Of a stretch of DNA of 64,000 nucleotides, positions 49,906 through 54,582 are shown piece after piece (the first letter of the stretch is position 1; each line of letters begins with the position of its first letter). Position numbers and translations under genes: made by a program. Source of the stretch: Vulcanimicrobiota bacterium (lineage in GTDB: Bacteria; Vulcanimicrobiota; Xenobia; Xenobiales; JADMJV01); assembly GCA_017307785.1 (NCBI GenBank), contig JAFKGI010000004.1, positions 1 through 64,000 on the forward strand. The letters are read 5' to 3'. The notes below the pieces were generated by a model. It ran no database searches. It saw nothing but the letters and a program-made list of their open reading frames with translations, and was not told where the DNA came from.

Positions 49906-50367
49906 CTAGCGAGCTTCGTACTCGAAGAGAGCCTGCCCCGCCTCAACCACCTGTCCGTTTTCCGCCAGCACGCGCAAGATTTTGAGCGGCCCTTCGGCGG
50001 TAATCTCGTTCATCAATTTCATCGCTTCCACGATGCACAGAGTTTGGCCGGTGGCGACTTGTTGGCCGGCCTCGACGAACGGCGGGGAGTTGGGGCGTGG
50101 CGCGCGATAAAAGACGCCGGCCAGGGGACTGTTGATGGTCAGGCCCGTGGGTGCTGCCGGAGCTGTCGGAGCGGTGGCCTCCTCAACAACCACCGTTGTG
50201 GTGGTAGAGGGAGCGGCAGCGGCAACGGTGGCCGCCTGCACGAACTTCTTCTTAGGTTCGAAAATCAACCGAAGGACGGTGTTCTCTTCCCGATATTCGA
50301 TTTCCGCCAGCTGGTTCTCGCGAGCAATGCGGGCCAATTCCCGCGCCAGTTCAACAGGTTCTTGCAT
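49906..50367 (-). CDS. accB: Biotin carboxyl carrier protein of acetyl-CoA carboxylase
   Basis: 153 residues. AccB carries carboxybiotin between AccC and AccAD to make malonyl-CoA for fatty acids. An N-terminal helix-strand block (1-40) is followed by an Ala/Pro/Thr/Val linker (46-75) and the biotinyl domain. The biotinylation site is EAMKLMNE with Lys117, and the bacterial thumb loop (PRPNSPPFVEAGQQV) is present. No accC follows, which is less usual; an MsbA-like ABC gene does. Confidence 0.93.
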   Translation of the reverse strand: MQEPVELARELARIARENQLAEIEYREENTVLRLIFEPKKKFVQAATVAAAAPSTTTTVVVEEATAPTAPAAPTGLTINSPLAGVFYRAPRPNSPPFVEAGQQVATGQTLCIVEAMKLMNEITAEGPLKILRVLAENGQVVEAGQALFEYEAR

Positions 50368-50412: not shown

Positions 50413-50454
50413 AAAAACCCCGCCACATCAAACTTTTGTCTAGAAGTGGCGGGG
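50413..50454 (-). terminator. Intrinsic terminator after the HisRS-like gene
   Basis: On the minus strand the 9-bp inverted repeat CCCCGCCAC...GTGGCGGGG (50454-50446 with 50426-50418) is followed by TTTTTG. It sits eight bases after the stop of the HisRS-like gene and separates it from accB. Confidence 0.85.
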
Positions 50455-50461
50455 CTCTGAA

Positions 50462-52465
50462 TCAACGGCGGCGGGCCGGACGACGCCGCGAGAGCGGACG
50501 GTCTTGACCCTGAGGTGCGTTGTCGCCCTCGTCGTCAACCGGTTGGCCGTTTGCTCTGGTCTTGATCGACCAGTTCAGGTTGCCCAGGGCCGCAGACGGA
50601 GCGACGGCAGCCTTGGCTTCCTCGGTTTTGGGAGCTGCCTTGGCTTTGGTCGGAGGGGGAGCGACTTTGACGCCACCCAGCGAAAGCGAAGGAATAAAGG
50701 CCTTGGCTGGCTGTGGTTCGGGACGTTCGTGACGGGGCTGAGGTGACTGACGTTCGCCTCGTTCCGGCCGCTCGCCCCGCTCCGGCCGTTCCGCGCGCTC
50801 AGGGCGTTCTTCGCGGCCGCGCTCCTGGCGCTCGGGACGCTCTTCCTGATCGTGACGGCGTCCACGTCCGCGGTCGCGCTCGCCATCCCGGCGAGAGTCG
50901 TCGCGGCGGGCATCATCACGGCGGGCGTCATCGCGGTCCTCGGAGACCTGTGCCTCGGGAGCGTTGTCTTCGTGTTCTCCGCGGCGACGACGGCGGCGCT
51001 TGCGGCGGCGGCCTTCACCGTCGCCCTCGTTGACTTCTTCCGCGTCATCTCGGCCCTCGCCCTGGCTGGAGGGAGGAGTCTCGTCCTGAGGACGACGTTG
51101 CGCATCGCGGTCTCTGTCGCGGTCCCGATCTCTGTCACGGTCCCGGTCCCGGCCGTTGTCGCGGTCCCGACCGTGGTCACGGTCTTTCCCGCGCAAGCGG
51201 TTGAGCCGGCGTCGAGCGCCGCGTCCTTCTCCGTCCCCGTCGCGCTGGCCCTGGCCCAGCATGTGCTGGAGGCGGGCCTGCAGGCGGTCGACGCTGCACT
51301 TCTCTTGCTGACGGCTGTCCTGGTCGATGATTTCGACCTGGCCGCGCAGGGCGTTAATTTCGGCGAGTTTAATGTGCCAGCGGGCTTCCGGAAGGTCGCC
51401 GTGGTTCTGGTAAACGACTTCGACCCGAGCTCCCGCCTTGCGCAACTTGAGGGCTACTGGTAGCAGGCTCTTGGTGGATTCGGGACCCTCCGGCAGAAAC
51501 AGGAAGTCCAGATCGTCCGGGCCTGCTTCGGCTGCCGGAAGCAAGGCCACCAGTTCGTCCAGATACATCGCGAAACCAGCAGCCGGAGTGTCTGCACCGC
51601 CTAACTGCTGTACCAGGCCGTCGTAACGGCCCCCCATGCCGACGGTGCGACCATCGACGGAGAGACGGAACACGGTGCTGTTGTAGTATTCCAGATCGCG
51701 GACCACGCGGGGATTGAAAGTTACCTCGAGGTCCAACTCTTGCAGCAGATGCTTGAGGGAGTTGAAGTGGGTCTTGCAGTCCTGGCAGAGCAGCCCCAGG
51801 ATGGTGGGCGCCAGATTCGAGAGCGCTTCGCAACCGGCTTCCGGACAGGAGAGAACCCAGGTGGGGTGATTGCGGTATTTACGCTTGCAACCCTGGCAGA
51901 GCTCATTCTGGCGGGACGCAAAGAATTCGCGCAGCGCGTCGTGATACGCCGGGCGACATTTTTCGCAGCCCAGCGAATTGATTTCCAGCTTCACGCCGGT
52001 CAATCCGATGGCTTCGCAGAACTCCAGAGCCATGACCAGGAGTTCGGTGTCGAGCGCCGGGCTATCGCTGCCCAGCACCTCCACGCCGAACTGGTGAGCC
52101 TGGCGGCTGGGTTCATTGCCTTCTTTGCCGAGCAAGAAGACCGGGCCGACATAGCTGAGCCTGGTCAGTCCACTCTCTTTGTTCATGCGGTGCTGATGAT
52201 AGGCGCGCACGACGCAGGGCGTCATGTCCGCGCGCAGGGCCAATTTCTGACCGTGTTTGTCGTTGAAAGTCCAGAGTTCCCGTTCGACGATGCTGGCCAT
52301 CACTCCGAGGCCACGCACGAACAGGTCGGCTTTCTCAAATAGGGGGGTGCGGATCTCTTGGAATCCGTATTTTTCGGCCAGCTGCATCGCCTTTTGCTCG
52401 AGCTGACGATATGCCGATAGCTGAGCCGGGAGCAGGTCGCTGGTGCCTCGTACCGCCTGGAACAT
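50462..52465 (-). CDS. HisRS-like protein with lost catalytic arginines and a charged disordered tail
   Basis: 667 residues. Residues 1-310 follow histidyl-tRNA synthetase, including the eight-Cys insert (C167 to C230) and GGRYDGLVQQLGG. Motif 2 reads VFLLGKE, with Leu111 where the class II Arg belongs; motif 3 reads GFAMYLDEL, with Glu304 for the second Arg; LRADMTP resembles HisZ. The anticodon-type domain (318-400) is weak. From 404 to 667 the chain is low-complexity, rich in Arg with Asp or Glu (RDRDRD, ERPERGE) and basic runs. It may be a HisZ-like or RNA-binding paralogue; a true HisRS cannot be excluded. Confidence 0.7.
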   Translation of the reverse strand: MFQAVRGTSDLLPAQLSAYRQLEQKAMQLAEKYGFQEIRTPLFEKADLFVRGLGVMASIVERELWTFNDKHGQKLALRADMTPCVVRAYHQHRMNKESGLTRLSYVGPVFLLGKEGNEPSRQAHQFGVEVLGSDSPALDTELLVMALEFCEAIGLTGVKLEINSLGCEKCRPAYHDALREFFASRQNELCQGCKRKYRNHPTWVLSCPEAGCEALSNLAPTILGLLCQDCKTHFNSLKHLLQELDLEVTFNPRVVRDLEYYNSTVFRLSVDGRTVGMGGRYDGLVQQLGGADTPAAGFAMYLDELVALLPAAEAGPDDLDFLFLPEGPESTKSLLPVALKLRKAGARVEVVYQNHGDLPEARWHIKLAEINALRGQVEIIDQDSRQQEKCSVDRLQARLQHMLGQGQRDGDGEGRGARRRLNRLRGKDRDHGRDRDNGRDRDRDRDRDRDRDRDAQRRPQDETPPSSQGEGRDDAEEVNEGDGEGRRRKRRRRRRGEHEDNAPEAQVSEDRDDARRDDARRDDSRRDGERDRGRGRRHDQEERPERQERGREERPERAERPERGERPERGERQSPQPRHERPEPQPAKAFIPSLSLGGVKVAPPPTKAKAAPKTEEAKAAVAPSAALGNLNWSIKTRANGQPVDDEGDNAPQGQDRPLSRRRPARRR
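50735..51205 (-). repeat. Low-complexity coding repeat (Arg-Asp / Arg-Glu)
   Basis: Within the tail of the HisRS-like gene, short tandem units code for RD (about 51115-51190), DDARRD (about 50890-50940) and ERPERGE-type repeats (about 50745-50850). The DNA is visibly repetitive (CGGTCC/CGGTCTC and CGCTCCGGCC-like units on the plus strand). Repeat number is probably variable between strains. Confidence 0.7.
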
Positions 52466-52777: not shown

Positions 52778-54088
52778 CTAGAGAATCATCTCCCGGATCA
52801 ATGGCTCCTGAGACCGCGCCTCCGGCACGATATGGAAGGCCCCGTGCAGGGCGCGTTCCGCCGCCTGGAGATGGGTCTGGTCGTTGACGTGAAGCGTGGC
52901 CAATGTCTGACCTACTTGAACAGGCTGGCCCTTTTCGACCTCGAGCACGATGCCCACGGCCGGGTCAATTTTGTCGGCTTTGGTGCGGCGTCCGGCTCCC
53001 AGCCACATGGCTGCCGTGCCAATCGTTTCCGCCGCCAGTCCGCCCAGATAGCCGGCTTTCTCGGCTTTGAAGGCGATTTTATGGGCTGCCTGGGGCAATC
53101 TCAGGGGGTCGTCGCAAACGCGACGGTCACCGCCCTGGGCCTCGATCATGTCTCCGAGCTTCTGGAGGGCCTGGCCGCTGCTCACGATCTGTGCCACCTG
53201 CTGCCGAGCCGCCTCCAGTTCCAATCCCTGGTTGGACATCTGCACCAGATGGGCGGCCAGTTCGTAGGCCACCTTCTCCAGTCCGGTCCCTTTACGCTCT
53301 CCTCGCAGAATGCGGATACCCTCATCGACTTCCAGGGCATTTCCGATCTGACTGCCCAGCGGTTCTTCCATGGAAGAGAGGGCGGCTCGCACCTGACGAC
53401 CGCGCAGTCGTCCGATGGCGACCATGGTTTCCGCCAGTTTGCGGGCGTCCTCGAATTCTTTCATAAACGCCCCATGGCCGAACTTGACGTCCAGCACGAT
53501 GGCGTCGGCACCGCAGGCCAGCTTTTTGCTCATCACCGAGGCGGCGATCAGGGGGATAGAGTCGACCGTGCCGGTGACGTCGCGCAGGGCGTACATCGCT
53601 CCATCGGCTGGCACCAACTTGCCGGTCTGGCTGATGACCGCCAGGCCAATTTTCCGCACTTGCTCTAAAAATTCGTTCTGACTCAGGTCCACGCGCATGC
53701 CAGGAATGGCTTCCAGTTTGTCCAGCGTGCCCCCGGTATGTCCCAATCCGCGCCCCGACATCTTGGCTACGCGGCCGCCCGCGGCCGCCACAATGGGAGC
53801 AATGACCAGCGTTGTGCCGTCGCCGACACCTCCCGTGGAGTGTTTGTCGACCTTGACTCCATCGATAGAGGACAGATCGACCTGATCTCCTGACTCGATC
53901 ATGGCCTGGGTCAGGAGGTTGGTTTCTTCGTCGTCCATGCCGCGAAACCAGACCGCCATCAACCAGGCGGCCAACTGATAGTTTTCCAGCCGGCCGCTGC
54001 TCAGCTCTTCGATCAAAAAGCGAATTTCTTCGGGGGTGTGTTTGCCGCCGTTGCGTTTTTTGAGAATCAATTGAACCGGGTGGAGCAT
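52778..54088 (-). CDS. deoA: Thymidine/pyrimidine-nucleoside phosphorylase
   Basis: 436 residues from ATG 54088. It phosphorolyses thymidine, deoxyuridine (and uridine if of the Pdp type) to base and pentose-1-phosphate. The family signature is VDKHSTGGVGDGTTL (Lys82, His83), followed by MSGRGLGHTGGTLDKLEAIPG and the SKKLACGADAIVLDVK block. The C-terminal beta domain is complete. The length and GVGD motif suit the pyrimidine-nucleoside phosphorylase group. It follows nrdR after 11 bases. Confidence 0.93.
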   Translation of the reverse strand: MLHPVQLILKKRNGGKHTPEEIRFLIEELSSGRLENYQLAAWLMAVWFRGMDDEETNLLTQAMIESGDQVDLSSIDGVKVDKHSTGGVGDGTTLVIAPIVAAAGGRVAKMSGRGLGHTGGTLDKLEAIPGMRVDLSQNEFLEQVRKIGLAVISQTGKLVPADGAMYALRDVTGTVDSIPLIAASVMSKKLACGADAIVLDVKFGHGAFMKEFEDARKLAETMVAIGRLRGRQVRAALSSMEEPLGSQIGNALEVDEGIRILRGERKGTGLEKVAYELAAHLVQMSNQGLELEAARQQVAQIVSSGQALQKLGDMIEAQGGDRRVCDDPLRLPQAAHKIAFKAEKAGYLGGLAAETIGTAAMWLGAGRRTKADKIDPAVGIVLEVEKGQPVQVGQTLATLHVNDQTHLQAAERALHGAFHIVPEARSQEPLIREMIL

Positions 54089-54099
54089 AGCTGAGCCTC

Positions 54100-54582
54100 T
54101 TATTCGTCGGTCTGAGGCGCCACGGTGGCGCGCAACTGTTGGAGAATCTTCAATTCCTCGGCGAAGCTGCTGACGTCTTTGAATTCCTTGTAAACCGAGG
54201 CAAAACGCACGTAGGCAACCTCGTCGGTGCGGCCCAGGTGCTCGATGACCAGATTGCCGATTTCGTCGGAGGTGATTTCCCCATGGCCGGAATGGCGCAG
54301 TTGGTGTACGATCGACACCACGATCGCCTCCATCTGCTCCAGGGTCACCGGCCGCTTTTCGCAAGCGCGCACCAAGCCGGCCAGAATCTTCTGGCGGTCA
54401 AACTTCTCCCGCTTGCCGTCCTTCTTGACCACCACCAGCAACGATTCTTCCACGCGTTCGTAGGTGGTGAAGCGATTCTGGCATTTCTCGCACTCGCGTC
54501 TGCGCCGAATTGCCGTGCCATCTTCGACCGTGCGCGAGTCGAGCACGCGGTTGTCGAGGCTATAGCAATAAGGGCAGCGCAT
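54100..54582 (-). CDS. nrdR: Transcriptional repressor NrdR
   Basis: 160 residues. NrdR senses dATP/ATP and represses ribonucleotide reductase genes. The zinc ribbon uses Cys3, Cys6, Cys31 and Cys34 (MRCPYC and CEKC), followed by RRRRECEKCQNRFTTYE, and the ATP-cone domain spans about 49-139 (VVKKDGKREKFDRQKI). Length is typical. It sits between ftsA and deoA in one operon; with deoA this groups nucleotide control and salvage. Confidence 0.97.
   Translation of the reverse strand: MRCPYCYSLDNRVLDSRTVEDGTAIRRRRECEKCQNRFTTYERVEESLLVVVKKDGKREKFDRQKILAGLVRACEKRPVTLEQMEAIVVSIVHQLRHSGHGEITSDEIGNLVIEHLGRTDEVAYVRFASVYKEFKDVSSFAEELKILQQLRATVAPQTDE

Follow-up and report, generated by a model that had tools for sequence, protein, structure and literature searches.

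The window, the whole 64,000-nucleotide stretch of DNA that was analysed, carries on its reverse strand an open reading frame for a HisRS-like protein of 667 amino acids, which begins with ATG at position 52465 and ends with TGA at 50462-50464 (Table 1). Pfam yields a single domain in the protein, tRNA-synt_His (PF13393, E=4e-54). Against the hisS model TIGR00442 it scores 296 bits (cut-off 286.75) and against the hisZ model TIGR00443 169 bits, far below the cut-off of 272; because it lies just above the first cut-off and below the second, automatic pipelines would call it a histidine--tRNA ligase. A pyrimidine-nucleoside phosphorylase ORF lies upstream of the gene, and the same holds for tailed genes from another family of this order. 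Past the stop codon, after about 10 bases, begins a terminator-like hairpin whose loop is too long for the hairpin scan used, and no known RNA element (e.g. a T-box) was found up- or downstream of the tailed gene at E values up to 1. The gene was followed through 18 genomes of its class (Ca. Eremiobacterota/Vulcanimicrobiota, UBP9/"Xenobia"), for which we infer the name "Ca. Xenobia" after PMC9758169.

Table 1. Coordinates of the tailed HisRS-like gene, its parts and its neighbours in the window.
Feature	Positions	Strand	Basis
Whole gene, tailed HisRS-like protein, predicted non-catalytic, 667 aa	50462..52465	-	PF13393, TIGR00442 matches
HisRS core, residues 1-404: class II fold, Cys insertion, anticodon-binding-like domain	51254..52465	-	AF2, PDB match
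Motif 1 (dimer-interface motif), residues 34-44	52334..52366	-	alignment of tailed proteins
Leu111 at motif 2 arginine (E. coli R113)	52133..52135	-	alignment
Cys-rich insertion, residues 162-245	51731..51982	-	regional identity comparison
HisA-like stretch VVRDLEYYNSTVF (canonical VRGLDYYTRTVF)	51668..51706	-	alignment; R259 equivalent present in window protein
Glu304 at motif 3 arginine (E. coli R311)	51554..51556	-	alignment
Anticodon-binding-like domain, residues 318-404, without RxLKxQxK helix	51254..51514	-	AF2, pattern check
Charged, predicted disordered tail, residues 405-667	50465..51253	-	composition, full-length model
RD dipeptide repeats, residues ~428-454	51104..51184	-	species comparison
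Basic run RRRKRRRRRR, residues 486-495	50981..51010	-	invariant within genus
Short motif KAFIPSLSL, residues 588-596	50678..50704	-	conserved in five species
Short motif LGNLNWSIK, residues 627-635	50561..50587	-	invariant in five species
Terminator-like hairpin CCCCGCCAC...GTGGCGGGG-TTTTT	50413..50454	-	read from sequence
accB-like biotin carboxyl carrier, downstream neighbour	49906..50367	-	common to ordinary hisS of other phylum classes
Pyrimidine-nucleoside (thymidine) phosphorylase ORF, upstream neighbour	52778..54364	-	gene neighbourhood

Over residues 2-357 the window protein aligns with the HisRS of E. coli (1htt/1kmm), with an E value of about 3e-65. The HisA arginine (R259 in E. coli numbering) is catalytically important in HisRS and is kept here, within VVRDLEYY, as are Q127, E131, Y264 and GGRYD. 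Both class II ATP-gripping arginines are lost, R113 being replaced by Leu111 and R311 by Glu304, while E115 has become Gly and the motif 2 region reads LRADMTP in place of LRPEGT. These two arginines are the 'Arginine Tweezers', reported to be invariant in class II synthetases (PMC5919687). The first-pass annotation, which had described a HisRS-like protein missing the class II arginines and bearing an unusual tail, was borne out, and the Cys-rich insert that it had recognized is intact, with eight Cys at positions 167, 170, 190, 193, 207, 212, 227 and 230. In motif 1, the alignment columns of G34, E37, R39, T40, P41, F43 and E44 are invariant throughout the tailed family.

An AlphaFold model of residues 1-404, built from an alignment of nine sequences, has a mean pLDDT of 83.6 and shows the HisRS fold, in which residues from about 318 to 404 form an anticodon-binding-like domain; its best PDB match by Foldseek was the Burkholderia HisRS 4e51 (TM 0.82). 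Because that domain is predicted to be present, the tail appears to be appended after the core. The anticodon domain had earlier been described as eroded and replaced by the tail, and of this the replacement does not hold, although the domain lacks an RxLKxQxK-type helix. The helix is missing in families f1-f3 of the class and present in f4 and in most of the ordinary HisRS checked, two ordinary outgroup sequences also failing the pattern.

Of the 18 class genomes, 17 yielded the tailed gene. It runs to its stop codon in 15 of these and into a contig end in G017, and in G013 only an N-terminal piece is present, next to the end of a contig; it was not found in G012, which is 72% complete. Sampled members of other classes in the phylum have ordinary HisRS without a tail. 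Of the best 80 relatives in a public genome collection, eight belong to this class and have frames of 608-728 amino acids, and the other 72 have frames of 408-428; all 72 of the latter have the HisA arginine, and all 66 in which the pattern could read motif 2 have its arginine. The distant profile scan used a four-sequence alignment, an alignment of nine sequences being too diverse. None of the tailed proteins read retains all three of R113, R259 and R311. Families f1-f3 lack R113, E115 and R311, some f3 genera lacking R259 as well, and family f4 keeps R113 and R311 and has His or Asn at R259; the relatives without the R259 equivalent are thus those of g4, g5 and f4.

The 263-residue tail of the window protein is 24% Arg, 24% Asp plus Glu and 6% hydrophobic, with a net charge of +10, near charge balance, and a basic run of 10 residues. 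Its RD repeats differ in length between species, and two short motifs recur in five species: KAFIPSLSL, invariant at all positions but one, and LGNLNWSIK, wholly invariant, with the counterparts KAIVPVFGL and GGLNWSI in the sister genus. The full-length AlphaFold model has a mean pLDDT of 38, and the tail lies below 50 throughout, essentially without secondary structure; this model is poor overall, probably because only five close sequences aligned, and so it points only weakly to a disordered tail. The tail combines low hydrophobicity, Arg richness, predicted disorder and conserved short motifs, as the tail of an RNA-binding disordered scaffold would. No tail-like sequence was matched elsewhere in the same genome by tail-query searches, which may under-report low-complexity matches, and the RNase E/G of this genome (L216, G000:C11) ends without a disordered tail.

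Charged tails were found in 16 species of the class, every complete member being tailed, with lengths of about 200-600 amino acids and basic runs in many. The tails of the small-genome members L013, L014 and L027 are net negative to neutral, less Arg-rich and furnished with mostly short basic runs, those of L013 and L014 being read only in part; RNA binding by the tail may therefore not be general, and no other point weighs as heavily against a purely electrostatic role in RNA binding. Family f3 tails (L010, L011, L018, L027) have an ELRPVEVR-like motif at the start and SEDSLE or AEDSME further on, and those of family f4 have in common RFDEWAATY-like and RRGGRRHGRRR-like motifs.

The genome contains exactly two PF13393 matches, the window protein and a 427-amino-acid protein at G000:C14. 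The latter is the second, canonical hisS that the first-pass annotation had proposed looking for, and the window protein is not the only HisRS of its genome, as that annotation had allowed it might be. The second protein scores 339 bits for the hisS model, keeps the signature arginines and all other active-type residues, and has no tail; it is closest to 3net, which we take to be a cyanobacterial HisRS, to Elizabethkingia 6nhi and to human cytosolic HisRS. The two genes are unlinked (C58 and C14). This second HisRS type occurs in 18 of 18 class genomes sampled, as a partial gene only in G016, and in the outgroup genome G026 (f13, 98% complete) it was the only type seen, with no bacterial-type HisRS, showing that the second type can suffice. 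Binning contamination, reported at 6%, was ruled out as its source by its occurrence in all 18 genomes. A switch in tRNA-His identity that freed the old HisRS was likewise ruled out, as the tRNA-His of the genome is ordinary, with G-1 opposite C73. Elsewhere, at L057/L033 (G030:C8), a second-type HisRS with intact signature residues directly adjoins a short-form hisG, a position that is usual for HisZ.

In a tree of 71 sequences, all 16 tailed cores form one clade (99/94) inside the ordinary bacterial HisRS; the second HisRS type and the HisZ-like proteins of the phylum lie apart from it. In several other classes, ordinary hisS has an accB-like gene after it, often together with a putative heparinase-like gene; accB likewise follows the tailed gene, and a putative heparinase-like gene lies a few genes further on. 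From the tree position and this neighbourhood, the tailed gene is most likely the ancestral hisS, altered in place.

The four congeners of the window protein preserve its reading frame. Among the five, core dN/dS is 0.03-0.10 and that of the intact HisRS 0.03-0.08, rough values because dS is near or above 1; for the tail, where dS allowed an estimate, dN/dS is about 0.07-0.3, with varying length and a kept frame. A chance ORF, a frameshift or a spurious tail was ruled out by the frame, the dN/dS values and the motif conservation. Conservation is also distributed differently within the two groups, whose overall divergence differs, so that only the ranking of regions within each group is to be compared: in the tailed proteins of f1-f3 the Cys insertion is conserved best, and in ordinary HisRS this is true of motif 2 and the HisA-motif 3 region. 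Identities were 0.51-0.55 (tailed) versus 0.44 (ordinary) for the Cys insertion, 0.48 versus 0.71 for motif 2, and 0.45 versus 0.64 for the HisA-motif 3 region. We infer loss of catalysis from the residues and their context, and the sequences strongly support a protein that has been retired from catalysis with its fold kept and under selection. Since strong selection still acts on it, the retired protein probably has a new, not yet described function.

One candidate function, possible though on the unlikely side, is that of a histidine or uncharged-tRNA sensor, whose core would bind histidine or tRNA-His without ATP and whose ligand state would control a partner recruited by the tail; HisZ and the HisRS-like domain of GCN2 serve as analogies. 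Members of f1, f2 and g6 have lost the ATP-gripping arginines and keep Q127, E131, R259, Y264, GGRYD and D at position 83, a retained histidine pocket that would suit a sensor equally well. Profile searches found neither hisG nor hisD in the window's genome (97.5% complete), an absence that is likely rather than proved given that completeness and the failure of the same searches (PF01634, TIGR00070, PF00815) to recover one of the controls, B. subtilis, which makes histidine; absence calls therefore need care. Across the class 4 of 18 genomes yielded hisG and 2 of 17 yielded hisD, and the congeners G001 and G002 have both. The lack of these genes in most class genomes suggests histidine auxotrophy in genomes of up to 8 Mb; these bacteria then probably import histidine and would benefit from sensing it. 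However, the pocket is partly gone in g4, g5 and g7, through R259P, Q127R, T85L and Y288C or Y263C, differing by member, and these genera retain the gene and the tail nonetheless, which argues against a universal histidine sensor. The RxLKxQxK helix is absent in f1-f3, and no signalling domain is fused; both also count against a sensor.

A more doubtful proposition is that the protein serves as a partner to the second HisRS or to another translation factor and would bind the active HisRS or the ribosome and tune charging. The almost universal co-occurrence of both genes in the class would fit such a pairing, but the genes are unlinked in the window's genome and the second HisRS type stands alone in G026.

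That the protein is still a functional HisRS, perhaps specialized or conditional, with its residue changes tolerated, seems to us very unlikely. Its score above the TIGR00442 cut-off and the strong purifying selection are compatible with activity, and the f4 members, with R113 and R311 kept, may have residual activity. Yet f1-f3 lack both class II arginines and f4 lacks R259, and a second, intact HisRS is always present. The 72 ordinary HisRS from other lineages all have the HisA arginine, as well as the motif 2 arginine wherever it could be read.

The moonlighting HisZ proposed by the first-pass annotation, a regulatory subunit of ATP phosphoribosyltransferase, can hardly be maintained. The window protein does resemble HisZ in deriving from HisRS, in having lost key catalytic residues and being predicted not to charge tRNA, and in its LRADMT stretch. 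It differs in belonging to another clade than the HisZ-like proteins of the phylum, some of which adjoin short hisG, in its score of 169 bits against a cut-off of 272, in keeping the Cys insertion and in carrying a charged tail. It also retains a predicted HisRS-type anticodon-binding domain, and we know of no HisZ that has one. Long-form HisG is not known to use HisZ, and the two HisG proteins of the class that were examined have the long-form C-terminal domain; the short-form hisG that the first-pass annotation had proposed looking for was not found in the genome, nor was any other hisG, or hisD, there or in most of the class. The HisZ role was ruled out on this combination of tree, model scores, HisG type and histidine gene content. 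A decaying pseudogene, for which the variation of active-site residues among species could be cited, is scarcely credible with a core dN/dS of 0.03-0.10, a frame kept class-wide, a conserved Cys insertion and invariant short motifs in the tail.

The reading that we favour, with a confidence that approaches even without reaching it, is that the original hisS was converted in place to a non-catalytic, probably dimeric adaptor associated with RNA or tRNA, after the second HisRS took over. The sequences give strong support to one part of this reading: the class has a second, residue-intact HisRS type able to assume the charging of tRNA-His, whereas the old HisRS has lost its ATP-gripping residues (f1-f3) or the catalytic HisA arginine (f4). 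The old protein retains the Cys-rich insertion and the dimeric class II fold, carries a long, charged, predicted disordered tail, and is maintained by selection. The adaptor would bind RNA, whether tRNA, mRNA or the ribosome, through the insertion, the anticodon-like domain and the multivalent Arg-rich tail, and the short conserved motifs of the tail would recruit partners, as the disordered half of RNase E does. The adaptor would neither charge tRNA nor regulate HisG.

Several known systems are partial parallels. With bacterial HisRS (TIGR00442/PF13393) the tailed protein shares direct descent, the fold, the Cys insertion, the accB neighbour and a match to the E. coli enzyme at E=3e-65, and it differs in lacking the ATP-binding arginines or the HisA arginine, in having gained a tail and, in f1-f3, in the loss of the RxLKxQxK helix. 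The second HisRS at C14 has the same fold, but it keeps the signature residues, is tailless and lies in a separate clade. The HisRS-like domain of GCN2 is likewise a degenerate HisRS in a non-charging role; this is an analogy only, as GCN2 is a eukaryotic kinase fusion and the tailed protein has no such fusion. The C-terminal half of RNase E, the RNA degradosome scaffold (PMC4435900), resembles the tail in disorder, composition bias, tandem repeats, conserved microdomains and Arg-rich stretches, although the tailed protein has no ribonuclease domain and the likeness is one of tail style rather than sequence homology.

A 2022 review of synthetase duplications lists no duplicated HisRS and gives HisZ as the sole HisRS-like protein (PMC9437257), and in the open-licence papers that we searched no bacterial pseudo-HisRS was described. 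The tailed family is a second kind of HisRS-like protein beside HisZ, with a single origin and kept across a class. Under standard annotation it would be named histidine--tRNA ligase and be counted wrongly in surveys of the translation machinery. It is plausible, though short of probable, that the whole class has a pseudoenzyme family in which a housekeeping hisS became a tailed, RNA-organizing scaffold, inactivated through different residues in two sublineages. Intermediate stages are visible, since f4 keeps the ATP-binding arginines and the RxLKxQxK helix and f1-f3 have lost both, so that the step from an essential translation enzyme to something else can be tested directly. If this is true, the tailed proteins would represent a non-catalytic function of HisRS in bacteria other than that of HisZ.
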